A DNA stretch of 11,990 bases from Gammaproteobacteria bacterium (GTDB lineage Bacteria; Pseudomonadota; Gammaproteobacteria; Tenderiales; Tenderiaceae): NCBI GenBank assembly GCA_027001525.1, contig JALTMR010000411.1:1-11990 (forward strand), in the 5' to 3' direction. A program made the position numbers and the translations under genes. This document shows, piece after piece, positions 122-10,669 of this stretch (its first letter is position 1; each line of letters begins with the position of its first letter). Below the pieces are notes generated by a model. The model saw only the letters and a program-made list of their open reading frames with translations. It was not told the origin of the DNA and did no database searches.

Positions 122-349
122 CTAATTCTCATCACTGGCATCTGCTTCGGCATTTCTGCGCATCGCGCTCTTCCAGTAGAGAACACCCATGAGAAAAAAT
201 GGAAACAGAACCGCAATCATCAAAAAAATAAAAATTGTCCAGGGCGTCTCTATGGAGACATGCATATATCGATAACTGTCCGCTGCGGCCATCGGTGCGA
301 ACACCACCAATGCGCCAGCCAACCAGGAACGCACTATTAAGTTAACCAT
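122..349 (-). CDS. Small membrane protein with signal peptide and one TM helix
   Basis: The product has 75 residues. The first 23 or so look like a cleavable signal peptide ending at MAAADS. After a short polar stretch comes one strongly hydrophobic helix (about residues 37-60, rich in Phe, Leu and Ile), then a basic and acidic C-terminal tail. If the signal is cleaved, a short segment faces the periplasm and the tail is cytoplasmic. Its ATG overlaps the TGA of the upstream FGE-like gene by one base (TGATG). A GGAGGG site lies about nine bases before the start, so translation is probably coupled. I do not recognise the family. From its position it could be an accessory subunit or assembly factor of the respiratory complex, which is inference only. 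Confidence 0.75.
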   Translation of the reverse strand: MVNLIVRSWLAGALVVFAPMAAADSYRYMHVSIETPWTIFIFLMIAVLFPFFLMGVLYWKSAMRRNAEADASDEN

Positions 350-1428
350 CAGTTTGAACCCTCCACCTCTGAGGTATCAGCCGCACAACGAAAGCCGAAA
401 AAATCCGACGCATAGTGTGGCCAGGAGTAGTTGCGATGATAGGTCGCAGTAGAGAATGGATCACTCTTCCACGAGCCGCCTCGCAACACCTTGTACTTGG
501 CATCAACCCCCACAAGATCGACCACCTTCATCGCCCTGTCCGAAGGCGTTTGCGCTACACCCTTTTTCCCCTGAAACAGATCAGGCGAAGCATCGGTGCC
601 ACGGTAGGGCAAGAAATCGTCCTCGGTCCACTCAAAAACGTTACCCGCCATATCCATCACACCATAAGGACTGGCCCCTTCTGGGTAGGTCGTCACATCC
701 GTCGAGCCACCAACGGAGTAATAGGTATTCAGGCGCGCGGCATCCATGTGCTCGCCCCAGGGCCAACGACGGCCATCGGTGCCCCGGGCGGCCTTTTCCC
801 ACTCCGCCTCGGTCGGCAACCGTTTACCTGCCCATGTGCAATAGTTGCTGGCGTCATACCAGGACACCATCACAACGGGGTGCATTTCCATCTCTGGGGG
901 AATTTGGCCATCAGTCCAGTCCAGTGGCGGACGGTAACCTTTATCCGCCACAAAGCGTGCATACTGAATATTTGTAGTGGGGTATTTATCAATCTGGTAA
1001 GCCGGCAAATCAACCCGATGCTGAGGGCGGTTCTGCTCGCTGGTGCGTCCCTTGTCAGACCCCATCAAAAAGGGGCCGGCAGGAATGGCTACCTGAGTCT
1101 CTATGTCCGCCCAGACTTCAGGTGCCAACAGAGACTCTACCTCCGCCACACTGTAGGTTTTGTAGTCCACCTTGCCGGCCTCGTGACGCTCGTGTCGGGC
1201 GACATCTTCCCCGGCAGCACGAATACGATCTTTCATTTCGCTTAAATCATAGGTGGCCTTTGAGCGCATCTCTTCCATACGATTCGCCCCCAGCTCAACC
1301 ACATGAAGACTACCGCCGATAACAGCGATGCCAGTACAGGTAACCAAGGTAGCATTCAGAAAGCGCTTACGCTTCTGTCGCTCTTTCTCACTGATTACTT
1401 TACGTTTACTAATCCTGCTACTGGCCAT
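349..1428 (-). CDS. Membrane-anchored FGE/SUMF1-fold protein lacking the catalytic cysteines
   Basis: The product has 359 residues. A basic N-terminus is followed by one TM helix (about 24-44), a charged linker that may be helical (about 50-95), and a full FGE-sulfatase (SUMF1/EgtB/PvdO/NirV-type) domain from about 113 to 350. Family hallmarks visible are GPFLMGSD (118-125), HPVVMVSWYDA, GKRLPTEAEWEKAARG (201-216), GNVFEWTED (262-270), VLRGGSW (314-320) and a terminal FGFRCAAD. True formylglycine-generating enzymes carry two copper-binding cysteines just after the GGSY motif. Here those positions read S322 and T327, so formylglycine formation is unlikely. The domain would sit in the periplasm. 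NirV, a relative encoded beside nitrite reductase genes, is a precedent for such a protein in respiratory operons. Its job here is unknown; a structural or maturation role is inferred. Confidence 0.9.
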   Translation of the reverse strand: MASSRISKRKVISEKERQKRKRFLNATLVTCTGIAVIGGSLHVVELGANRMEEMRSKATYDLSEMKDRIRAAGEDVARHERHEAGKVDYKTYSVAEVESLLAPEVWADIETQVAIPAGPFLMGSDKGRTSEQNRPQHRVDLPAYQIDKYPTTNIQYARFVADKGYRPPLDWTDGQIPPEMEMHPVVMVSWYDASNYCTWAGKRLPTEAEWEKAARGTDGRRWPWGEHMDAARLNTYYSVGGSTDVTTYPEGASPYGVMDMAGNVFEWTEDDFLPYRGTDASPDLFQGKKGVAQTPSDRAMKVVDLVGVDAKYKVLRGGSWKSDPFSTATYHRNYSWPHYASDFFGFRCAADTSEVEGSN

Positions 1429-1436
1429 TAAACTTT

Positions 1437-1907
1437 CTACTTCGATACATTGTCTTTTACTGCCTGCTTGTAAAGCAGATGTTTAGGCCTGCGCCCATAG
1501 GTACGTTTCACCATAATCTCTCCCGCGATCCCGCCAAAAGCGGCTGCTTCAATAGCAACGATGAGTACGAGAATCCAGTAAAAAAAGGGCAGTACCGTCA
1601 CACCATCCGGAAGCTGTGCTTCCATTCCATTCATCTGCACATAGCTAACAACCCGCACAATCAGGGGAGAGAAGTAGCAGAGCAATTTACCGCCAAGGCC
1701 GTATATTGCTGAAACAGCAAACCCCGCAATAAAAGGAACAAGAAAGAGGTCAAGTACCCATATGGGTGAAAATGTACTGACGCCCCAAAACAACTCCAGG
1801 CGAACGCCAAGGAGCCGATCCCCCATGTAGTTCACCAACGCGCCAACACTGATGGCAAAAACGGCCATAACAAAAGCCATTAAGCGAGGACTATTTTTCA
1901 GAATCAT
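1437..1907 (-). CDS. Polytopic membrane protein, probably four TM helices
   Basis: The product has 156 residues from the ATG at 1907; a GTG at 1925 would add six. I prefer the ATG because a GAGGAG site lies ten bases upstream and actually overlaps the GTG codon. Hydrophobic segments fall at about residues 8-28, 45-65, 68-85 and 110-135, with a polar loop (SYVQMNGMEAQLPDG) before the last, and a basic tail. No CxxCH or other cofactor motif is present. The start overlaps the end of the upstream cytochrome gene by 17 bases, so the genes are co-transcribed and probably coupled. I do not recognise the family. It could be an integral subunit or an assembly protein for the adjacent oxidase. Confidence 0.8.
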   Translation of the reverse strand: MILKNSPRLMAFVMAVFAISVGALVNYMGDRLLGVRLELFWGVSTFSPIWVLDLFLVPFIAGFAVSAIYGLGGKLLCYFSPLIVRVVSYVQMNGMEAQLPDGVTVLPFFYWILVLIVAIEAAAFGGIAGEIMVKRTYGRRPKHLLYKQAVKDNVSK

Positions 1908-2394
1908 CCGATTTGTACTCCTCACCCGTCAGCTTCTCAAAGGCCGATTTTTTTGCCTCTTCGAGATACCAGTCTTCAACCTTCAAACTGGCGACATAGG
2001 CCGCCAACACCTTTCGATCTTCCTCACTCAAATAGGCAAAAGAGGGCATCTGGTACTTCTTCTTCAACCTTGAGGGCAAAATAGCTTGAGGGTCTTCGGC
2101 TGAAAAATATTCATACAGCCATGCTTCACTTCGCAGCGAACCCATTCCATCAAGCGAAGGTGCGGGAACAGACTGCATGGGGTTCCGCACCCCCCAAAGC
2201 GCGTGACAATCGCGGCAAGCCAAACGTTTGTACAACTCACTACCCTTGTTCTGCAGTTCCACTGATGCCGTAGTGTAGAAAGGAATCCCCTTGTCTTCCC
2301 CTTCCTCCTGGGCCATGCGGTAACCGTTAACCCCCCAGAACAATACAGCGGATACTGCGATACCGATCAGTATCCCCTTCTCGCCTTTCTTCAT
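1891..2394 (-). CDS. Membrane-anchored monoheme cytochrome c (NorC/CcoO-like)
   Basis: The product has 167 residues. An uncleaved TM anchor at about 7-24 precedes a class I cytochrome c domain in the periplasm. The heme attachment motif CRDCH is at 60-64, and the likely distal methionine is M116 in the YQMPSF motif, followed by the usual C-terminal helix (SEEDRKVLAAYVASL). The order of elements, including GSELYKRLACRDCH and RSEAWLYEYF, matches NorC and the single-heme domains of cbb3 oxidases. It presumably feeds electrons to the CcoN-like subunit, perhaps in place of the hemes missing from the CcoP-like protein. It overlaps the CcoS-like gene by four bases (ATGA). It is also a paralogue of the cytochrome at 9018-9572, sharing the LDGxGSxRSExWL segment. 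Confidence 0.9.
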   Translation of the reverse strand: MKKGEKGILIGIAVSAVLFWGVNGYRMAQEEGEDKGIPFYTTASVELQNKGSELYKRLACRDCHALWGVRNPMQSVPAPSLDGMGSLRSEAWLYEYFSAEDPQAILPSRLKKKYQMPSFAYLSEEDRKVLAAYVASLKVEDWYLEEAKKSAFEKLTGEEYKSDDSEK

Positions 2395-2669
2395 TTACTG
2401 CTCTTCTTACGACGGACAGCTTCCTGTTCCTTGAGAATCTCTTCCCGTCGCTTCATCTGAACATCCAGAACTTCACGACTCTTTTTATACTCTTCCGGAT
2501 CCATCTTATCTTTGTCATTTTCGTCGAAAACAAGATATTTTATATCCTCATCGAATTGCTCATTCTTCTTGGCCCATCGGATACCAAAAATAGCCGCCAG
2601 GATAATCAACCCCCCAGCGATTAACCAGACATAGATGGTCCAACCATCTGGTAGCGTATCTAAATCCAT
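2391..2669 (-). CDS. CcoS-like cbb3 oxidase maturation protein with charged tail
   Basis: The product has 92 residues. One TM helix (about 13-31) is followed directly by RWAKKNEQFDEDIKYLVFDE (31-50). This closely resembles the CcoS signature, in which a W-A-x-x-x-x-Q-F-D-D stretch is followed by an I/L-F-D-D/E segment. CcoS is needed for insertion of cofactors into CcoN of cbb3 oxidases. Canonical CcoS proteins end soon after that motif. This one continues for about 40 residues of very charged sequence (KDKMDPEEYKKSREVL onward) that could form a coiled coil. Its stop overlaps the start of the cytochrome gene by four bases. The match is based on motif recall, so a CcoQ-like role remains possible. 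Confidence 0.75.
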   Translation of the reverse strand: MDLDTLPDGWTIYVWLIAGGLIILAAIFGIRWAKKNEQFDEDIKYLVFDENDKDKMDPEEYKKSREVLDVQMKRREEILKEQEAVRRKKSSK

Positions 2670-2687
2670 ATCAACAACCTCTTTGGT

Positions 2688-3005
2688 CTAAAACAGGTAA
2701 CCCTGAAGCAACTGAGCTGCAGCCATCGCAACTGCACCGATGATTCCAATAAAAATCCATACAAACATGACCTTTTCGCCAGTTTTCAGACTGGTTTTTT
2801 GACCATTGCTATTGCTGCCACTGAGCATAAATTTGAACACGATCATTGTAAAAACAATGATACAGACGATGAGAAAGATAAAAATACCAACACTAAACTG
2901 CTGGCTATATAGACCTTCGATCCCCCATTGGTCATCGATAATAGACTCCACTCGAAGCTCATTAGTGAGTGAGACTAGCGAGAAACTATTGCTATTAGAA
3001 AACAT
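2688..3005 (-). CDS. Two-TM membrane protein, first gene of the second operon
   Basis: The product has 105 residues from the ATG at 3005. An upstream ATG at 3026 would add seven residues, but an AGGA site lies six bases before the inner ATG, so I choose that one. A polar Ser/Asn-rich N-terminus of about 38 residues is followed by a strong TM helix (about 39-61, FSVGIFIFLIVCIIVFTMIV), a short basic loop (SGSNSNGQKTSLKTGEK), and a second helix (about 80-102). No cofactor motif is seen. It is the first gene after the terminator at 3111-3137, with possible promoter elements just upstream. I do not recognise the family. Its two-helix form and place are compatible with an accessory subunit. Confidence 0.75.
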   Translation of the reverse strand: MFSNSNSFSLVSLTNELRVESIIDDQWGIEGLYSQQFSVGIFIFLIVCIIVFTMIVFKFMLSGSNSNGQKTSLKTGEKVMFVWIFIGIIGAVAMAAAQLLQGYLF

Positions 3006-3042
3006 CAACTTTCCTGCCACTTCCATTCATGACCGTTTTACT

Positions 3043-3075
3043 ATGTTAACAGCTCATTACACCCATTAACAATGG
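3043..3075 (-). promoter_or_regulatory. Possible promoter and operator upstream of the second operon
   Basis: On the minus strand TTGTTA (3072-3067) and TAACAT (3048-3043) lie 18 bases apart, each matching four of six bases of the sigma-70 consensus. The palindrome TGTTAACA (3044-3051) and the inverted repeat CCATTAACAATGG (3063-3075) sit on these elements and could be regulator sites. The location between the upstream terminator and the first gene fits. The match quality is modest. Confidence 0.35.
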
Positions 3076-3110
3076 CCTTGAGTACATGACGCCAACCAAC
3101 TAATACCCAA

Positions 3111-3137
3111 TAAAAAAGGGGAGCAGAGCTCCCCTTT
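3111..3137 (-). terminator. Rho-independent terminator of the ccoN operon
   Basis: A perfect ten-base stem (AAAGGGGAGC paired with GCTCCCCTTT) with a three-base loop is at 3115-3137. Read on the minus strand it is followed directly by a run of Ts (TTTTTTATT, the arm plus 3111-3114). This is a textbook intrinsic terminator 11 bases after the stop of the 41-residue gene. It separates the core operon from the next one. Confidence 0.92.
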
Positions 3138-3147
3138 CTATGCCTGA

Positions 3148-3273
3148 TTAATGATCTTCAGGCGGCGTTTCCTTGTCATAGTTATCAATGAACAAACTAT
3201 AGACAAATGGTGCAACAAACACGAGAGCAATAATTACAGCCATCACTAATGGCGGATTATCGATATCTATCAT
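3148..3273 (-). CDS. 41-residue single-TM peptide, putative oxidase small subunit
   Basis: This short open frame encodes MIDIDNPPLVMAVIIALV followed by more hydrophobic residues (FVAPFVYSLFI) and an acidic tail ending PPEDH. It is a single TM helix with about eight residues before it and about 12 after. GGAG lies six bases before the ATG. It follows the CcoP-like gene by 21 bases and directly precedes the operon terminator, so it is the last gene of the core operon. Known cbb3 oxidases contain one-helix subunits (CcoQ, CcoM), and this peptide has their size and topology. There is no clear sequence match, so the subunit role is inferred from position and form. Confidence 0.8.
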   Translation of the reverse strand: MIDIDNPPLVMAVIIALVFVAPFVYSLFIDNYDKETPPEDH

Positions 3274-3294
3274 AAAGTTCTCCAACTAAAGTGG

Positions 3295-3918
3295 TTAGTG
3301 AGCAATAGAGTGATCTGGCTTCCAGCTATAATGCGGGAGACGCTTGATCGCTATCAGAACAGCAATACAAAAATAGGTCACATAAAAAATATCAATCGTG
3401 TAACCCTTATCCCACCATGGCTGCTTGCGCTCGATCGTACCATCTGGCTTGACGTTACCCTCGAAGTTAGCCAGCACCACCTTATCCCCAATCACGGTGT
3501 ACTCACTAAGGTCCAACCCTTGATTATGCAGCTCAATCACTTGCGCCTTGATCATACGCAGGTCATCCATCGTCAGAGGGTGGCGCTCCTGAAAAGGCTT
3601 CAATGAATCGTCCTTGGTATTATTCACCAGGTACTCCATCTTGCCCGCATCAGTAGCAATAGCCTGCACAGCCGGAGAATCCATATTCTGAATGTACTCC
3701 AAGTAAATATCAGCTGTGGGACGCTGCCCCCAAAGCGGAAAGGTAATGGCGAATGCTGTGATAATCGTCAAGCCCAGGAGCCAAACTACTGGCACCGGCA
3801 AACGGTTATTATCTTCAGAAATACCACCAAGACTCTCGCCTTCCCAAACACCTTGGGCGACCTTGTTTTGCTCATCGTCCGTCAGTGAATATAACGGACT
3901 ATCAGTTCTCCAACCCAT
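3295..3918 (-). CDS. CcoP-like subunit without heme c domains
   Basis: The product has 207 residues. The first 65 resemble the N-terminus of CcoP/FixP: an acidic GVWEGESLGGISEDNNRLP stretch (23-41, compare the WDGI-E-NNPLP pattern of CcoP), then a TM helix (about 43-62). CcoP continues with two cytochrome c domains. Here no CxxCH motif occurs anywhere. Instead there is a polar region of about 110 residues (65-172) with predicted helices, then a second TM helix (about 174-191) and a basic end (KRLPHYSWKPDHSIAH). Both termini would be cytoplasmic, with the middle in the periplasm. It sits 12 bases after the CcoO-like gene, exactly where ccoP normally is, with a GGGGGAG site. I infer a structural subunit that has lost electron-transfer function. 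Confidence 0.78.
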   Translation of the reverse strand: MGWRTDSPLYSLTDDEQNKVAQGVWEGESLGGISEDNNRLPVPVVWLLGLTIITAFAITFPLWGQRPTADIYLEYIQNMDSPAVQAIATDAGKMEYLVNNTKDDSLKPFQERHPLTMDDLRMIKAQVIELHNQGLDLSEYTVIGDKVVLANFEGNVKPDGTIERKQPWWDKGYTIDIFYVTYFCIAVLIAIKRLPHYSWKPDHSIAH

Positions 3919-3930
3919 GTTCTTCTCCCC

Positions 3931-4881
3931 CTACTTAAGGCTTAAGATAAAGTCCATCAGATAACGAATTTGGCTATTAGGTGCGTACTCTGGCACCTCA
4001 GGCGGATACAGAGACTCCCCCTTCGCATACTCGTTATAGGCAGCTCCCCATGCATCGAAGTCAATGGTATTACCACTGGCATCTTTCTCTCCCCACATAT
4101 AGTCATAGCGAGGCATGATGGAATGGGGCTGAACCAAACGCGGATTGAAAAAGTGCATCATCATCCACTCTTTGGAAGAGTTCCGAGACCCAACATGAAG
4201 CAGATCAGGAGCCTTGCGATCAGAACCAAACGCGGTTGGAGATTCGCCATTAAAGTCACCCAGGCGAGGTGGAACACCGAAGTATTGCCAATCCTGAGTC
4301 TGTTCTGGCAGCAAAGTATGACACCACCAGCAGCCCTCTTTAACGAACATAATCTTGCCCGAACCAACATAGCTCGTATTGGCATCACCAGCAACGCTCA
4401 GCACTTTCTCCGGCTTCCACCCACGAGTCGCCGTCACGTTTTCGATGTAGTTAACCGTCTCACCCTGATAAGAGCCACGAGAGACGACAAACACTGCTCC
4501 CGCAGAGATATCCGCCTCGCTGATCCGCCCTTTTTCCAAACTCAGGTCCGTAATGCCATCCCCCAAAACACGAGGGTGATTAATCCCCCCCGCAAAAGGA
4601 ATACCGGGCTCATAAACATAAGCCTCAACTGTCTCAATCTGCTGACCGGTAACAGGGTCTTCAGTCAAAACAACAGTTTTAGGCTTACCTTCACCCAATA
4701 AAAAGGGATCTTCGTATGAAAACCCGCCAATGCGACCGTAAGACAATTGCTTACGCAGACTTGTTTCAGTCGCAGCCACAGACGTCATATCGATAGTAGG
4801 CAGATACAAGGTGATAATCATTGAACCACCAAGTGCCACTCCAAACAGACGCGCACCGATCTTATATTCTCTAAAAGCCAT
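3931..4881 (-). CDS. ccoO: CcoO-like membrane-anchored monoheme cytochrome c, enlarged
   Basis: The product has 316 residues, against about 200-240 in usual CcoO. One N-terminal TM helix (about 10-28) carries the start of the CcoO pattern (YKIGARLFGVALGGSM...LP). The heme motif CWWCH is at 184-188 in the context KEGCWWCHTLLPEQTQDWQYFG, matching the CcoO region with REGCYxCHSQ. APDLLHVGSR (224-233) matches the GPDLARVG motif, and M256 in HSIMPRY is the likely heme ligand. About 110 extra residues (roughly 50-165) lie between the anchor and the heme domain, and another insertion (262-298) follows the methionine. It would sit in the periplasm beside the CcoN-like subunit and pass electrons to it. 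The GGGAG site is eight bases before the ATG. Confidence 0.88.
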   Translation of the reverse strand: MAFREYKIGARLFGVALGGSMIITLYLPTIDMTSVAATETSLRKQLSYGRIGGFSYEDPFLLGEGKPKTVVLTEDPVTGQQIETVEAYVYEPGIPFAGGINHPRVLGDGITDLSLEKGRISEADISAGAVFVVSRGSYQGETVNYIENVTATRGWKPEKVLSVAGDANTSYVGSGKIMFVKEGCWWCHTLLPEQTQDWQYFGVPPRLGDFNGESPTAFGSDRKAPDLLHVGSRNSSKEWMMMHFFNPRLVQPHSIMPRYDYMWGEKDASGNTIDFDAWGAAYNEYAKGESLYPPEVPEYAPNSQIRYLMDFILSLK

Positions 4882-4903
4882 TTGGCATTCTCCCTACTAT
4901 TAA

Positions 4904-6310
4904 TTAACGCTCGTAAGCCATTTCATGAGGTAGACGACCCACAGGGATCTCAGTACCAACACGAGCAGTCATATACATGTTGTAAAGCCACACCAGGTTC
5001 CCGGTGAATACCAAAGTACCCCCCACCCAGCGAGCAATCATGTAGGGATGCTCAGCAATTACCACGTCAATGTAAGGAACCTCGTAAATTTTACCTGCGC
5101 CCTGAATCAGGCCGGCAATAGTCATGGAGATCCAGTAGATAGAGAAACCAATCAGCAAGAACCAGAAGTGGAAGTTAGCCAACGCCAGGGAATACAGCTT
5201 ACGACGAAGAATGGTCTGAATACCGTAGTAGACAGCAGCCCCTTCCAGGAAGGTAGAAAAGCCCAGCAAAGCCAAATGAGCATGAGCCACAATCCAGCCC
5301 GTACCGTGGACATACCAGTTAATGGCGCGAGTCTGCTGGAAACCACCCTGCATATTCAGTGGAATCGCCATCAGTACACCGGTAATGGTAAATTTGATCT
5401 CAACGTTCTCCACAAACATGTGCCACTTGCCCTGCATGGTCAGAATCAGGTTAGAGACAAACGCGATAGCTGGCACAAGAATCAACACACCCTCTACCGA
5501 GGCAAACGACTTCAGCCACTCAGGAAGAGGCGCTGACATCAAATGGTGGGCTGCAGGAGTAGAGTAGAAGACAACTACCGACCAGAAGTGCAAGTGACCG
5601 ATACGGTGAGAATAGAGCGGATTACCCGTCACCTTAGGGACAGTGTAGTAAGCGATTGCCGCAGCAATTGGCGTTATCCACAAACCAAGCACGTTATGAG
5701 CAAACCACCAAGTCATATAGGCTTCGCTCAATCCGGTAAGGTTAAACCACTCGGGAGAGTTACCTACGATAAAAACGATGGTTACCATGAACACGCCCGC
5801 ACCAAAAAACCAGTTAGTGGTGTAGATACCCTGGGTACGACGTTTGAGGATAGTCATCCAAACATTAATAGCCAGAGGCAAGGCAATAAAAGCGGCGATG
5901 TAGAGATCGATAACCCAAGGAAAATCTGAATACTCACGACCGGAAGTGATACCAGCCCATAGCAACGTCAACCCCAGAGACAAGCCGATATTCCACAAAA
6001 AGCAGTTCCAGATACCCAGCTTTTCGGACCATAGCTTGGTATTACCCAGCGCTGGCGTGATATACATCATCGCCATGGCAAATGCCATTGAGATCCAACC
6101 AAAAATTACAGCCAGAACATGTACCTGACGCATGTGACCAAAAGAAAAAAGCTCACTACCGGTAACAAAATCGGGAAATGCCAATTTTGCAGCATTAAAC
6201 GACCCCAAACCCGTACCGACCACAAACCAAACAATCGACGAAAAAGCGAAAAATATTGCCGCACTACCCTGCGGAATATCTTCATTTTTCGCAAATAGGT
6301 ATTTCAACAT
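4904..6310 (-). CDS. ccoN: CcoN-like heme-copper reductase subunit I, variant C family
   Basis: The product has 468 residues and about 12 TM helices, the usual CcoN length. Ligand residues visible: H64 (RQVH, low-spin heme), H205 in WWFAHN and H255/H256 in TPAAHH (copper B), H343 and H345 in AHAH (the two hemes). Y249, six residues before the HH pair, matches the cross-linked tyrosine of cbb3 oxidases. Departures from ordinary CcoN are NWYVHGTGWIVAHAH (331-345), which resembles NorB's NYYTHGTQ...AHGH segment, and E273 (FASVEG), possibly matching a conserved NorB glutamate. The glutamate after the first helix-VI histidine in NorB (HLWVEGVWE) is absent (HNVLGLW). It is the catalytic subunit, reducing O2 or possibly NO at a heme b3/CuB-type site. 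GGGGGAGG lies nine bases before the ATG. Confidence 0.9.
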   Translation of the reverse strand: MLKYLFAKNEDIPQGSAAIFFAFSSIVWFVVGTGLGSFNAAKLAFPDFVTGSELFSFGHMRQVHVLAVIFGWISMAFAMAMMYITPALGNTKLWSEKLGIWNCFLWNIGLSLGLTLLWAGITSGREYSDFPWVIDLYIAAFIALPLAINVWMTILKRRTQGIYTTNWFFGAGVFMVTIVFIVGNSPEWFNLTGLSEAYMTWWFAHNVLGLWITPIAAAIAYYTVPKVTGNPLYSHRIGHLHFWSVVVFYSTPAAHHLMSAPLPEWLKSFASVEGVLILVPAIAFVSNLILTMQGKWHMFVENVEIKFTITGVLMAIPLNMQGGFQQTRAINWYVHGTGWIVAHAHLALLGFSTFLEGAAVYYGIQTILRRKLYSLALANFHFWFLLIGFSIYWISMTIAGLIQGAGKIYEVPYIDVVIAEHPYMIARWVGGTLVFTGNLVWLYNMYMTARVGTEIPVGRLPHEMAYER

Positions 6311-6339
6311 AGTGTTAAACCTCCCCCAAAAAATCTACC

Positions 6340-6367
6340 TTTACAGACCCAGTATTTGGGCTGTAAA
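6340..6367 (-). other. Stable intercistronic hairpin before ccoN
   Basis: TTTACAG(A)CCCA and TGGGCTGTAAA form an eleven-base stem with one bulged A and a five-base loop. No T-run follows directly on the minus strand, so it is not a standard terminator. It lies between the 30-residue gene and ccoN and could be a processing or mRNA-stability element that sets the level of ccoN relative to the upstream genes. Confidence 0.6.
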
Positions 6368-6392
6368 ACTCAAACTCGATCTCAACCTGATT

Positions 6393-6485
6393 CTAGTGCT
6401 TGCCTGGCAGCATCAGATACCAAGCAAACCACATACTTAAAAAGGCAAGAACAATCCCCAAGACAGTCGCTATAGCCTCGACCAT
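6393..6485 (-). CDS. 30-residue single-TM peptide upstream of ccoN
   Basis: The frame encodes MVEAIATVLGIVLAFLSM, then WFAWYLMLPGKH, then a stop. It is almost entirely one TM helix with aromatic residues near one end and a basic tail. A strong GGAGGG site lies six bases before the ATG, which is good evidence of translation. It lies between the 96-residue gene and ccoN on the same strand. The size recalls tiny respiratory subunits such as CcoM of cbb3 or CydX of cytochrome bd, but no sequence match is claimed. Confidence 0.75.
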   Translation of the reverse strand: MVEAIATVLGIVLAFLSMWFAWYLMLPGKH

Positions 6486-6570
6486 TTGAAACCCTCCGAA
6501 ATATTTCCCCAAAAGAACACAGCTACCCGGCACAGACGCCAGGTTTCCGGCAATCAAACAAACAACTCAA

Positions 6571-6861
6571 CTACCCAGCCTGGCGCGCCGCAGCTGCCTC
6601 AATCTCACCATGCCGATTCAAAGTAATCAGCATAATAATCATAAAAGCGATACCAAACACGATCATGCACCAGTCGATAAAACCGGTAAAAGTTGTAGGA
6701 TCAAAAGCTTGCATACCCATTCCGCCCCAGTCCTCGAAGGGACCACGACCTAAAGCACACATAAGAGCAGCGCCGAACACACTACCATTACCCATACCGG
6801 TCGTAACACCACCGATCAGGCTAACGATAAAGGTCTTTGCTGGCGTTAGATTATTTACCAT
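6571..6861 (-). CDS. 96-residue membrane protein heading the ccoN operon
   Basis: The product has 96 residues. A moderately hydrophobic, glycine-rich segment (about 9-36, FIVSLIGGVTTGMGNGSVFG) is followed by a polar loop (GRGPFEDWGGMGMQAFDPTTF) and a strong TM helix (about 60-80, FIDWCMIVFGIAFMIIMLI), then an Ala-rich charged tail. There is no heme or metal motif beyond scattered Met and Cys residues. The GGAGGGG site directly before the ATG at 6861 supports the start. It precedes the 30-residue peptide by 85 bases with no terminator seen between, so it is probably the first gene of the core operon. I do not recognise the family. Confidence 0.78.
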   Translation of the reverse strand: MVNNLTPAKTFIVSLIGGVTTGMGNGSVFGAALMCALGRGPFEDWGGMGMQAFDPTTFTGFIDWCMIVFGIAFMIIMLITLNRHGEIEAAAARQAG

Positions 6862-7296
6862 GACTCCCCTCCATTTAGCTGTTTAGCTAACAAAACGATG
6901 AACTCCGAATCAGTTCCCTTTTTCTTGTGCAACAACACTCAAATGCCTCCCATTTGGGTATTGCCCTCCAGCACAAAAACTTCGCCTTTAGGAACTAATA
7001 CTGACTGGCGATATTTGCACACGCCACCACAAACAGTCAAGCCCTTTTTGGACCCAAACCATGACCTAAGAAGATGTTTTCATGCCCCCATAACCGAAGC
7101 ACCCAAGACCGCCCAACAAGCCATATCAAATAGTCGATACAACTCCCGCATCCGCACAAAACCACACGACACACCACCAAAGAACAGAACCCACTCAGCC
7201 CGATCAAAGCCATAGGAAAGAGCGACTGATTGCAGTATCCTAGGCTTTACAGAAAAAGCAGTTCAATCCTTGAAATCAACCAAACACTCTAAGCAA
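6862..7296. other. Long intergenic region between divergent genes
   Basis: These 435 bases separate the core operon (leftward) from the small plus-strand gene. The plus strand is poor in G and rich in C and A, especially at 7021-7200. A TTGACT box on the minus strand (7040-7035) could be a -35 element for the core operon, but no good -10 is placed correctly. An eight-base palindrome TTAGCTAA lies within 6877-6892. No convincing FNR, terminator or RNA gene was found. The region probably holds the promoters of both flanking units. Confidence 0.5.
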
Positions 7297-7500
7297 ATGA
7301 AAGAAATCATTATCTACTCCATTGCCGGCGTAGCCTCGCTGTTTATCTTTGGCTACACCATTCACATGTTTGTAGGGGGACTTGTCGAGGAGGAGACAGA
7401 GACGCTACTCATCGCTGCCGCCTGCACCATTGCCGCTGTCGTCATGGGACTCATGGTATGGGATATCAAAAAGCGGCGACAGAACAGCCACCGCTCTTAA
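7297..7500 (+). CDS. Small two-TM membrane protein, plus strand
   Basis: The product has 67 residues from the ATG at 7297; a TTG at 7270 would add nine. Two TM helices (about 2-25 and 36-57) are separated by an acidic loop (GGLVEEETET), and the tail is basic (DIKKRRQNSHRS), giving an in-out-in arrangement by the positive-inside rule. The ribosome binding site is weak. It converges on the gene at 7504-7965, with only three bases between the stop codons. I do not recognise it. Confidence 0.6.
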   Translation: MKEIIIYSIAGVASLFIFGYTIHMFVGGLVEEETETLLIAAACTIAAVVMGLMVWDIKKRRQNSHRS

Positions 7501-7503
7501 AAA

Positions 7504-7965
7504 CTACTTATAAACAGACAAACGGGAACGCAACTCACTATATTCACTTTCAACAGGGAACTGGCCACGATGAAAAACAAACTGCCTCTTCTTCCCTGAC
7601 AGATCCATACCCGTCAATGCAAACGACTTCCCTGCATAATCTGAGAAGTATTTTAGGTCCTTCACCAACTCTATTTGATCGCCACGTTTTATCTTTACAG
7701 AGATGGCGTTTTTGGACACTGACAACTCCGTAGGAGCTGAAGGCAAAATCATTAACCGGGTAGAGAGTACCCGATTAGCCCCGGCAATAAAAAAGAAGCT
7801 TGCCCCAAAAAATAACAAATACGCCCAACTCTGATTTGCCCCCCCGCCATACCAAAGCTTAAGACCGATAGATGCCAGCGCAACCACCGTTGGCACATAC
7901 ATCACCAGATCCCACGTAGCCCCCTTTTTATCGGGCACCAATATATACGTCTGCGACTTACTCAT
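7504..7965 (-). CDS. Two-TM protein with a C-terminal soluble beta-rich domain
   Basis: The product has 153 residues. A short polar N-terminus (MSKSQTYILVPDKKGATWD) is followed by two TM helices (about 20-38 and 46-66). A domain of about 85 residues follows, with alternating pattern (TELSVSKNAISVKIKRG, DLKYFSD, KRQFVFHRG). This layout resembles small bacterial membrane proteins with a PH-like domain, but the assignment is tentative. An AGGG site precedes the ATG, five bases after the stop of the thioredoxin-like gene, so it is the last gene of that unit. Its role is unknown; a place in assembly of the neighbouring cytochrome proteins is inferred from context. Confidence 0.75.
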   Translation of the reverse strand: MSKSQTYILVPDKKGATWDLVMYVPTVVALASIGLKLWYGGGANQSWAYLLFFGASFFFIAGANRVLSTRLMILPSAPTELSVSKNAISVKIKRGDQIELVKDLKYFSDYAGKSFALTGMDLSGKKRQFVFHRGQFPVESEYSELRSRLSVYK

Positions 7966-7970
7966 TCACC

Positions 7971-8465
7971 CTACCCAGCACTCTTCACGCGTCCCAACAC
8001 GGCATCAAGCTCACCATACAAGACCCGACCGGCCTGCTTGTAGCGCACAATACCGTCCTTGTCGATGACATAAGTCCACGGATCTCCCATGACCTTAAAC
8101 ACCTTAAATGCCTCAGGGTTTTGGTACTGATCCATATGAAGAAAAAGCACATCATCATGCTTATCCATCATCCCCTTGAGCATCTGAAGCTGCTTGTCGC
8201 ACACAGTACAGTGGCCCGGTGTGGCAAACTCCAACACCACTGTCTTGTTCTGAGCCAACGCATCATCCAGAGAATACTGATACATCCGTTCATCAGGGTA
8301 TCTGTAGCTCGTTATACGGCTAAAGTCCCCCCCTACATCCGCCAACGTTTTAGTTTTCACCTGGGGGGCGACGGAGCCAACGTGCAACGCACCTTCAGGA
8401 GCAACACCACACCCCGAAACCACCAGGGACAATAACCAAAGCACCACTATAGCTCGAAATTTCAT
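7971..8465 (-). CDS. Thioredoxin-fold lipoprotein (TlpA/SCO-like) with CxxC
   Basis: The product has 164 residues from the ATG at 8465. The first 19 form a lipoprotein signal (KFRAIVVLWLLSLVVSGC), with C19 as the lipidated cysteine. The soluble part has a thioredoxin fold: a strand KTVVLEFATPGHCTVCDKQL (74-93) with CTVC at 86-89, the WTYVID strand after a cis-Pro-like DP (128-135), and GIVRYKQAGRV. TlpA and SCO proteins of this type reduce apocytochrome or CuA/CuB sites, or deliver copper, at the periplasmic face. The gap between the two cysteines is two residues, as in TlpA, rather than three as in SCO. The start overlaps the stop of the HCO-like gene by one base (TGATG), so coupling is likely. 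A longer start at 8489 would ruin the signal peptide. Confidence 0.85.
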   Translation of the reverse strand: MKFRAIVVLWLLSLVVSGCGVAPEGALHVGSVAPQVKTKTLADVGGDFSRITSYRYPDERMYQYSLDDALAQNKTVVLEFATPGHCTVCDKQLQMLKGMMDKHDDVLFLHMDQYQNPEAFKVFKVMGDPWTYVIDKDGIVRYKQAGRVLYGELDAVLGRVKSAG

Positions 8466-8977
8466 CAGTCCTTCTCCCACCCGGAACACGTCTTATACAG
8501 ATTGTAGGCCCAGATAATATTGGCAAGCAAAACCAAGGTTCCAAATATCCCCATCGCCGCCAGCCAAGGCTTAACTATCGCCTCAACTTCTTGCGGGGAA
8601 GAGTAGACACTGGCATTCCCTCCCAGCACGCCCGCAATGGTAAAGAGCAACACCATCCCCACCAAACCAACGTTATGAATCCAGAAATGTACCTTAACCA
8701 ACTTCAGACTGTAGATGGGCCGCCTGACCAAACGAGGAATGATGTAATACACTGACGCAAAAATCGCCATCTCAACCCACCCAAGCAGATTGATATGGGT
8801 GTGCGCCCTCACAATCAAATTACCGTGCAAGCGATGATCAACAAAGTGACGGAACTCAGCAATCCCCCCCATTAAAGCCCCCCACGAAAACCCGATAATG
8901 GCATAAACAACGCACGCATAAACAAACAACAAGGTATAGCGCGTATATTCTTTATCCTGGACCCACGGCTCGTTCAC
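8465..8977 (-). CDS. Stand-alone four-TM protein like the C-terminal helices of CcoN
   Basis: The product has 170 residues from a GTG at 8977, with GAGAGG six bases upstream. TM helices fall at about 16-38, 58-80, 95-118 and 138-160. Residues 55-120 align with residues 339-404 of the CcoN-like protein in this same window: AHTH against AHAH, LLG, VYY, RR, YSL, HFW, and TIAG with similar spacing. It also resembles HVHSGALGW of classical CcoN. Thus H59 and H61, the positions of two heme ligands in CcoN, are kept, while the copper-site helices are missing. It might bind heme b or serve as a partner or assembly subunit. It lies 40 bases after the anchored cytochrome c gene. The length and good start argue against a decayed gene. 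Confidence 0.85.
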   Translation of the reverse strand: MNEPWVQDKEYTRYTLLFVYACVVYAIIGFSWGALMGGIAEFRHFVDHRLHGNLIVRAHTHINLLGWVEMAIFASVYYIIPRLVRRPIYSLKLVKVHFWIHNVGLVGMVLLFTIAGVLGGNASVYSSPQEVEAIVKPWLAAMGIFGTLVLLANIIWAYNLYKTCSGWEKD

Positions 8978-9017
8978 AAAACACCTCTCACACTCTTGTT
9001 AACACGCAAAACCACAA

Positions 9018-9572
9018 CTACTCACGAATATCGCGATACTTGTCCTTCCACTCCTCGGGAGCAAAGGTCTCCAGGGCTCCGTCAATAAACCCCGACGCCC
9101 CCTTGGGTGGTAACGGCGATGATGCCGCACCCTGGTCGGATTTCAAACCCGATAAAAAAGCGGCTATCGCCTCCAAATCAGCCAACGGTAGACTACTCAC
9201 GTAGGCCGCCTCTTTTGGGGCAAAGCCATGATCGAGCGTCGGCGCACCATAAGTTGCCTCAGGGTCACGCATAAACTTCAGCAGCCACTCCTCACTTCGC
9301 TTGGAGCCAATACCATCAAGATTCAAACCCATATTGGTGCCATTTCGCATAGCTCGATGGCAGGCAGTACAACGCGCCTCGCGGAATATTCTAGAACCCT
9401 GCTTGCCCTGCTCGGTAAAGGTGTAGTGCGTACGCACTTCAAACATCGGCTTATCTGACATCAACCGAAAAGCCTCAAGTGCAACATAACCAATCACCGC
9501 AGCCACAAGGAAAATACCAAAGATACCAAACAGGAGTTTTTCACCCTGCTTTAAAGGTTGCTTACCAGCCAT
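9018..9572 (-). CDS. Membrane-anchored monoheme cytochrome c, no obvious distal Met
   Basis: The product has 184 residues. A TM anchor at about 12-32 follows a polar start (AGKQPLKQGEK). The heme motif CTACH is at 68-72 in GSRIFREARCTACH, and LDGIGSKRSEEWLLKFMRDP matches the sister cytochrome at 1891-2394. The position of the M-P-x-F ligand motif reads AAYVSSLP here, with no methionine; M81 and M101 or H115 are other candidates. A long Pro/Gly-rich and acidic tail (145-184) follows. It would be a periplasmic electron carrier, presumably for the HCO-like module downstream. The GGG-containing ribosome site is weak. It is the first gene of its unit, after the terminator of cytochrome c4. Confidence 0.88.
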   Translation of the reverse strand: MAGKQPLKQGEKLLFGIFGIFLVAAVIGYVALEAFRLMSDKPMFEVRTHYTFTEQGKQGSRIFREARCTACHRAMRNGTNMGLNLDGIGSKRSEEWLLKFMRDPEATYGAPTLDHGFAPKEAAYVSSLPLADLEAIAAFLSGLKSDQGAASSPLPPKGASGFIDGALETFAPEEWKDKYRDIRE

Positions 9573-9664
9573 ATACTAACCCACAACAAAGACACAACAC
9601 TGAAGACCACAAGAGGATGAAGACCTACATTCCATGCAGTACGACACTCTAGCACCAAATTAAC

Positions 9665-9696
9665 AAAAAACGGGGCGCTGAAAACTCAACGCCCCG
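9665..9696 (-). terminator. Rho-independent terminator after cytochrome c4
   Basis: CGGGGCG pairs with CGCCCCG, with one mismatch and then TGA/TCA extending the stem to a four-base loop (9671-9696). On the minus strand a TTTTTT run follows. It lies about 40 bases after the stop of the cytochrome c4 gene and separates it from the next unit. Confidence 0.9.
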
Positions 9697-9736
9697 CTTC
9701 ATATGTAGCTACACCACGAAACACAAGCAATACAAA

Positions 9737-10501
9737 CTATGGCAAATGCTCTGGTGGAACCTGAGTATTACCCAAGGTAGTGGGCGGCGCCTGCGTCAGA
9801 TAAGTCGCCACATTCAGAATATCCTCATCTGTCAGCTTCTCAGCAACTTTTCGCATCTGCGCCATAGGATCATTCTTACGCTCACCGTCTCGAAACTTTT
9901 TCAACTGAGCCACAAGATAGGTAAGCTTCTGCTCCCCAATCCGAGGATACATTGGCTCAACGCCACGCCCGTTAAAACCGTGACAAGAGTAACAAGAAGG
10001 AATGTCACGCTCCGGCACACCGTAATACACCATAATCTTACCGACGTAGGCTTGCCCTACCTCTGTCCCCATCTCTTTCAGCGCAGCAATATCGGAACCA
10101 CCAGAAGCAACCTGCAACTGCTTACCCTTAAAAGTGCGCCCCAAAGAGTTCAGGTAGGCAGCTACGTCACGCCGATCAGCCTCCGACAGCCCCTTGGCAT
10201 TGGCGTTCATCACGTACATCGCCGTATCCTGGCGACGATCATTCGCGTAATCATCAAGCTGTTTATACAGAAACTGATACAACTGGCCCGCCAAGCGAGG
10301 CGTACCCAGATTATCATCCCCAAGACCGGTAGCACCGTGACAAGAATTACAAGCGGGAACATCCCCCTTACCATTCTCAAAAACAGACTTACCGTTAGCG
10401 TAGTCCGCACCGGTTACCTTATTACCACCAGCATGCACTGGAGACATCATCATCAACGCCAACACAGACGCCGACCCAAGCTTTAACAAATAAGTGCGCA
10501 T
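9737..10501 (-). CDS. Diheme cytochrome c4
   Basis: The product has 254 residues from the ATG at 10501. A Sec signal peptide ends at about residue 24 (SPVHAGG). Two similar cytochrome c domains follow, with heme motifs CNSCH at 51-55 and CYSCH at 170-174. Each is followed by GxxGxG, P-R-L/I-x-G/E-Q, a Y-x-x-x-Q-L helix (the first reads YKQLDDYANDRR), a methionine region (M95/M98 and M213/M216), and the AAYL/ATYL helix. This is the full cytochrome c4 pattern. In gammaproteobacteria this periplasmic protein carries electrons from the bc1 complex to cbb3 oxidases. An upstream in-frame ATG (10543) has no ribosome site and would spoil the signal peptide, whereas GGGAGGG precedes 10501. It may deliver electrons to the complex encoded downstream. 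Confidence 0.95.
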   Translation of the reverse strand: MRTYLLKLGSASVLALMMMSPVHAGGNKVTGADYANGKSVFENGKGDVPACNSCHGATGLGDDNLGTPRLAGQLYQFLYKQLDDYANDRRQDTAMYVMNANAKGLSEADRRDVAAYLNSLGRTFKGKQLQVASGGSDIAALKEMGTEVGQAYVGKIMVYYGVPERDIPSCYSCHGFNGRGVEPMYPRIGEQKLTYLVAQLKKFRDGERKNDPMAQMRKVAEKLTDEDILNVATYLTQAPPTTLGNTQVPPEHLP

Positions 10502-10669
10502 ACGAAAGACACCCTCCCAGATTCTTGTCTTTTTTAGCCTCATTGCTGCAGACAGGACGAAACCCCCCTCAGCAAAACCGGCTAAAAACCCCCGAAATAA
10601 AACTTAAAGAAACCAGCACAACCCCCTCAGGTAGCGCCAGCGACCAACATTAAACTAATTTAGAAAAAG

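Follow-up and report, generated by a model that had tools for sequence, protein, structure and literature searches.

The stretch of DNA analysed here (hereafter the window, 11,990 nucleotides of contig JALTMR010000411.1 from a gammaproteobacterium of the Tenderiaceae) carries on its minus strand a run of 14 genes, at 349-10543, which includes a gene for a CcoN-like catalytic subunit of the heme-copper reductases. This gene, at 4904-6310, is the exact span of an open reading frame of 468 amino acids (aa), the plus strand being interrupted by stops across the same positions, and its product matches Pfam COX1 (2e-76). We interpret it as the catalytic subunit of a C-type (cbb3-like) heme-copper O2 reductase belonging to a discrete lineage, here called clade F (our own label for the close relatives of the window protein), and put the probability of this interpretation at about 0.88.

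4904..6310, minus strand: CcoN-like catalytic subunit of clade F, 468 aa (COX1 2e-76; ccoN 231.8 bits, below cut-off; trees; residue counts)
Codons within it, minus strand: Y249, 5566-5564; E273, 5494-5492; Q321, 5350-5348; HGTGW, 5308-5294; E356, 5245-5243

Residues of the catalytic subunit

Residues were counted in 213 clade F sequences (that of the window plus those from 92 loci and 120 database proteins, many closely similar and hence not independent) and in 292 other members of the superfamily, namely 33 ordinary CcoN, 124 of a group called C555 (Cupriavidus, Ralstonia, Paraburkholderia), 121 of a group called L108 (Methylobacillus, Gemmatimonadota, Myxococcota), 6 cNOR, 5 qNOR (the two forms of nitric oxide reductase, NOR) and 3 A-type; two C-type-like long branches, L101 and L120, were counted separately as 'otherC', outside the 292. 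The six ligand histidines of the low-spin heme, the high-spin heme and CuB, which belong to the definition of the C-type (PMC3084760), are each present in 213/213 clade F sequences, window included (H64, H205, H255, H256, H343 and H345). The tyrosine of helix VII (Tyr-II, Y249) is equally invariant, its column being Tyr in 33/33 ordinary CcoN and in 0/11 NORs. The initial annotation of the window had picked out these histidines, Y249 and the glutamate E273 from a single protein, and all of them turn out to be fixed in the clade. In addition, Y221 and S234 (213/213 each) and Y222 (211/213) stand at what we take to be the positions of the alternative K-channel. The Tyr and Ser of that channel are listed by residue type for the C-type in PMC3084760.

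Other residues set the clade apart. E273 and E356 are each found in 213/213 clade F sequences and in 0/292 of the others; E304 and E420 also score as clade-specific acids (above 95% in clade F, below 5% elsewhere), as does E187, for which there are 36 comparable sequences only. G336 is present in 210/213, where ordinary CcoN has Y or N in 33/33, so that the suggestion of a distinct clade made in the initial annotation is borne out. An AlphaFold2 model built with 56 sequences (mean confidence, pLDDT, 82.6) predicts helices at 264-276 and 337-368, which contain E273 and E356, respectively. The column of Q321 is Glu in 33/33 ordinary CcoN, whereas it is Gln in clade F, the C555 group and the L108 group (with Glu in one C555 sequence). 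That E273 or E356 stands in for this lost glutamate was considered, and is weakened by the C555 and L108 groups, in which 244/245 sequences have Gln there and neither E273 nor E356 occurs. No description of E273, of E356 or of the whole set of subunits was found in the accessible portions of the open-licence papers, within which we did not find these signature residues described.

The resemblance to NorB, on which the initial annotation had placed some weight, is a partial one. In a gap-free alignment the clade F segment NWYVHGTGWIVAHAH corresponds to NALSHYTDWTIGHVH in ordinary CcoN, to NYYTHGTQITAAHGH in NorB and, in one aa3-type subunit, to DIALHGTYYVVAHFH; the shorter loop supposed for the usual CcoN is therefore not there. 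The likeness of the HGT to NorB is real. HGT alone does not identify a NOR, however, since one of the three A-type subunits reads HGTYYVVAHFH (the other two read HNS and RGT). NORs are defined, in PMC3084760, by H-X-Arom-X-E and HH-X-Arom-Arom-X17-E. The second of these, spanning helices VII-VIII, occurs in 6/6 cNOR, 5/5 qNOR and 0/213 clade F sequences. The first occurs in 11/11 NORs and in 35/213 clade F sequences, in the latter elsewhere in the protein and never at H205, the fourth residue after which is an invariant glycine (G209) where NOR needs Glu; the helix-VI glutamate is indeed missing, as first read. E273 does not correspond to the NorB glutamate, which aligns to I277 (Ile in 213/213), four residues further on, whilst the column of residue 273 is Phe in 11/11 NORs. 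Clade F has thus none of the tested NOR-defining motifs, and what it has in common with cNOR NorB is the superfamily fold and the HGT..AH.H segment.

Relatives and phylogeny

In 84,980 species genomes scanned, 229 stretches had the pattern, 212 of which encode a relative; the best 80 of these 212, which were examined, are 82-95% identical and all from Pseudomonadota. Twenty-six of the 80 come from Gallionella, Sideroxydans, Gallionellaceae or Gallionellales (11), Nitrotoga (9), Ferrovum or Ferrovaceae (5) and Mariprofundaceae (1), and the rest mostly from gamma- and betaproteobacteria and Chromatiaceae. Among 398 sampled Pseudomonadota genomes, a match of at least 70% identity was listed for 42, with the next among the matches listed at 35% or less, so that among these matches clade F looks discrete. 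Its identity to ordinary CcoN is about 29-33%.

Three maximum-likelihood trees were built, each with 'long branches meet' warnings. The first omitted 16 of 64 aligned rows; the second omitted 24 of the 64, among them the long branches L101, L120 and L128; the third, the best sampled, combined 44 rows with 11 database proteins and left out qNOR, L101, L120, L128 and near-duplicates. Clade F was monophyletic in all three (100/100, 100/100 and 100/99) and fell within the C-type side (97/94, 97/96 and 100/98), as sister to all other C-type oxidases with support of 85/78, 76/46 and 97/93. In the approximately unbiased (AU) test on the larger set, grouping clade F with ordinary CcoN gave p 0.0386, and p was 0.0939 when it was joined to the C555 and L108 groups. 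Clade F is therefore a deep C-type branch in every best tree, its exact branching order being tentative, and it is a distinct lineage rather than ordinary CcoN; by topology, it may sit on the NOR side of the other C-type oxidases. The tree proposed in the initial annotation hence does place the protein outside canonical CcoN, and places it inside the C-type side.

The C555 and L108 groups have C-type features and the Q321 glutamine in common with clade F and differ from it in being separate clades, with Q or A/S at 273, a hydrophobic residue or T at 356, and F at 336. The comparison also drew attention to C-type or related proteins at some particular loci. One group of about 525-570 aa (L096:3048-4709, L116:5722-7386) occurs in Cupriavidus, Ralstonia, Pseudomonas, Burkholderia and Paraburkholderia and has Gln at the E273 column; an open reading frame downstream in L096 (5920-6633) is SCO-like by eye. 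Another (L108:372-1646), from Methylobacillus, Gemmatimonadales, Longimicrobiales, Myxococcota and Kofleriaceae, is without the ordinary-CcoN glutamate. On a Ruegeria pomeroyi plasmid (L128:2899-4803) a small and a larger COX1-like gene form a pair beside an SCO gene, an arrangement which presumably resembles sNOR clusters.

Neighbouring genes and the half-oxidase

The genes around the catalytic gene are as follows, with neighbour counts taken from those of the best 80 loci that have enough flank.

349..1428, minus strand: SUMF1/FGE-like domain protein, one N-terminal hydrophobic segment (PF03781 2e-54; 62/65 loci)
1437..1925, minus strand: membrane protein, 162 aa, about four helices (no Pfam match; 61/67 loci)
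1891..2394, minus strand: monoheme cytochrome c of 167 aa with a single N-terminal hydrophobic segment and CXXCH at 60 (PF00034 5.5e-08; 66/69 loci)
2391..2669, minus strand: small membrane protein, weakly FixS-like (PF03597 18.1 bits, below cut-off 23.1; 67/70 loci)
2688..3026, minus strand: membrane protein, 112 aa, about two helices (no Pfam match; 68/70 loci)
3295..3918, minus strand: membrane protein, 207 aa, weakly like the N-terminus of CcoP, no CXXCH (PF14715 16.9 bits, below cut-off 24.9; 71/71 loci)
3931..4881, minus strand: CcoO/FixO-like monoheme cytochrome c of 316 aa with its CXXCH at 184 (PF02433 63.9 bits, cut-off 29.6)
6571..6861, minus strand: small membrane protein, 96 aa, directly upstream of the CcoN-like gene (no Pfam match; 69/70 loci)
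7504..7965, minus strand: protein of 153 aa (no Pfam match; 47/68 loci)
7971..8489, minus strand: thioredoxin/redoxin-like protein, CXXC, probably membrane-anchored (PF00578 30.4 bits, cut-off 26; 46/66 loci)
8465..8977, minus strand: 'half-oxidase' of 170 aa with about four helices, resembling the C-terminal part of COX1 (COX1 7.6e-19 over profile 310-435; 47/64 loci)
9018..9572, minus strand: monoheme cytochrome c of 184 aa with a single N-terminal hydrophobic segment (PF00034 3.1e-08; 44/60 loci)
9737..10543, minus strand: diheme c-type cytochrome, likely electron donor (PF00034 in two stretches, 2.2e-20; 42/56 loci)

The CcoO-like gene adjoins the catalytic gene on the same strand in 74/74 loci, and its product has the single CXXCH of the monoheme CcoO of ordinary cbb3 and a conserved methionine, M256 (1.00 in 80). 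No single protein combining a FixP_N domain with two hemes c, as CcoP does, was found among the window genes or the neighbour loci. The 207-aa protein, heme-free and with two conserved histidines (H113, 1.00, and H203, 0.99, in 79), is possibly a CcoP that lost its hemes. The diheme cytochrome, in which M112 and M230 are conserved (1.00 in 48), matches TIGR00782 ccoP partially (40.6 bits, cut-off 179.95). The upstream block, with the half-oxidase at 47/64 and the diheme cytochrome at 42/56, is less constant than the other neighbours. The thioredoxin-like protein has C94, C97 and H118 conserved (1.00 in 51) and adjoins the half-oxidase; it may deliver copper or reduce heme-site cysteines. In the SUMF1-like protein C348 is conserved (0.98) and C197 is not (0.38), and since these are, we presume, the catalytic Cys pair, a formylglycine-generating role looks unlikely from the sequence.

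Over 131 aa, the half-oxidase shares 35% identity with the C-terminal portion of the catalytic subunit, its H59 and H61 aligning with H343 and H345; these two histidines, H97 and H101 are each conserved (1.00) in 50 copies. It follows clade F closely in the 398-genome sample, 39 genomes having both, 3 clade F only, 6 the half-oxidase only and 350 neither (Fisher p 5e-44, in which independence is overstated as the genomes are related). Completeness is 57-87% in the six genomes with the half-oxidase only, of which two (G198 and G242) have weak CcoN matches that could be fragments of clade F. Small COX1-family matches number at least one in 30/30 clade F genomes and two in 28/30. A second small COX1-like protein of 173 aa is encoded in the same genome as the window (L005:1327-1848), and in N. 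fabula one small COX1-like match lies downstream of the catalytic gene, some 11 kb away.

Substrate, alternative readings and meaning

In 15 of 30 clade F genomes (all nine Nitrotoga and six others), clade F is the only full-length COX1-family protein found; bd oxidase is absent from 8/9 Nitrotoga and from 10 of these 15 genomes, and an alternative oxidase was found in one of the 15 (Nitrotoga G399). A sole full-length heme-copper reductase, mostly without bd, points to O2 as the likely substrate. The choice between O2 and NO, which the initial annotation had left open, is hence no longer fully so, O2 being the most likely; an additional NO activity is possible, and ordinary cbb3 enzymes have been reported to have some. 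In the N. fabula paper a predicted cbb3-type oxidase is given as the terminal oxidase for electrons from nitrite. Its gene is presumably the clade F gene, because N. fabula record ZN8 (perhaps another assembly than that of the paper) has one full-length COX1-family match. The genome of the window, a fragmented assembly of 583 contigs and 88.3% complete, has two RuBisCO genes, one dsrA match below the cut-off, part of an ordinary CcoN (L003) and a separate cNOR NorB gene (L001) with both NOR motifs.

If the enzyme works as a C-type oxidase, electrons would pass from a diheme or monoheme cytochrome c in the periplasm to the heme c of the CcoO-like subunit, then to the low-spin heme b (H64/H345), and on to heme b3 (H343) and CuB (H205, H255 and H256), where O2 would be reduced to water. 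The fourth electron would come from Tyr249, for which a cross-link to a CuB histidine is expected, and protons would enter by the alternative K-channel (Y221/Y222, S234). We infer the metal content, the cross-link, the electron route, the O2 activity and any proton pumping from the features above; that E273 and E356 serve a proton path unlike that of ordinary cbb3 is a guess.

Several observations weigh against the C-type O2 reductase interpretation. The 468-aa protein scores 231.8 bits with NCBIfam TIGR00780 ccoN, short of the curated cut-off of 583.15, and the CcoO-like protein 60.5 of the 200.65 bits of NCBIfam ccoO; the AlphaFold2 model falls below pLDDT 50 at 257-260 and 331-343, near the active site; the diheme cytochrome may do the work of CcoP; the other 15 of the 30 clade F genomes have one to four further full-length COX1-family proteins, the completeness of the 30 not being stated; and no activity measurement of a clade F enzyme was found in the accessible portions of the open-licence literature. 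Lastly, the AU test did not reject grouping clade F with cNOR and qNOR in the smaller set (p 0.104).

A fuller version of the C-type reading is less likely than not. Clade F would be the third and deepest C-type lineage, with its own proton path via the buried E273 (helix VIII) and E356 (helix X), separate cytochromes in place of a typical CcoP, a dedicated four-helix half-oxidase that serves either as an additional heme b subunit or in assembly, and the role of sole terminal oxidase in most Nitrotoga.

Much less probable is that clade F reduces NO, or both O2 and NO in the cell, as an intermediate between cbb3 and cNOR. The HGT-type segment, an acidic residue in helix VIII one turn off that of NOR, the outermost position among C-type branches (97/93; weaker in the two other trees), the p of 0.104 above and the lack of any other full-length COX1-family protein as a possible NOR in Nitrotoga genomes would all suit it. 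Against it stand the missing NOR motif 2 and helix-VI glutamate, the presence of Tyr-II, the Ile where NOR has its Glu, and rejection of the grouping with cNOR in the larger set (p 0.0105); nor do the 14 window genes, whose monoheme cytochromes were not compared with NorC, give any Pfam match to AAA or VWA (NorQ/NorD-like). The window's genome, moreover, already has its NorB. NOR membership is thus rejected by the motifs and, partly, by the tree.

About equally improbable is an ordinary cbb3 oxidase (ccoNOQP) changed by sequence drift. Clade F and ordinary CcoN (3mk7, 8smr and 9g6b) have the same fold, six histidines, Tyr-II, alternative K-channel Tyr/Ser, N287/T291 and CcoO-like partner; the diheme cytochrome, with its partial ccoP match, could replace CcoP; and papers, in their accessible parts, and some NCBI names (e.g., 'cbb3-type cytochrome c oxidase subunit I' for some database relatives) label these enzymes cbb3-type. 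Identity of only about 30%, the gap from 70% or more to 35% or less among the matches listed, the p of 0.0386, HGTGW where CcoN has H-Y-T-D-W, Q321 for Glu, the added E273 and E356, other small neighbours and the lack of a typical CcoP gene (FixP_N domain plus hemes) reject this identity.

A C-type lineage of its own finds parallels in earlier descriptions. The proximal and distal forms of cbb3 are said to have been defined by Ducluzeau 2008. Papers on iron oxidisers, as far as their available text goes, call such enzymes cbb3-type and use these two names, and in Sideroxydans ES-1 both forms are reported there as expressed, the proximal up on Fe(II)-citrate and the distal up on thiosulfate. 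We liken clade F to these forms by the kinds of organisms (Sideroxydans ES-1, Zetaproteobacteria, Gallionellaceae) and by the descriptions available; the two CcoN forms described there recall several genomes here with both clade F and ordinary CcoN matches. For Ferrovum JA12 the accessible part of PMC4725956 describes genes for cbb3-like subunits I and II only, and proposes nearby c-type cytochromes as a replacement of subunit III; the likeness is one of description, and Ferrovum loci group within clade F.

If the interpretation is correct, the O2 reductase behind nitrite oxidation in Nitrotoga is not an ordinary cbb3, in spite of its cbb3-type label, and the same non-ordinary type is one oxidase of several iron oxidisers; the O2 affinity of ordinary cbb3 should then not be assumed for it. 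The buried glutamates, together with the loss of the CcoN glutamate at Q321, would make clade F a natural test of the residues of pumped protons in C-type oxidases, and its branching position bears on the split between O2 and NO reductases.
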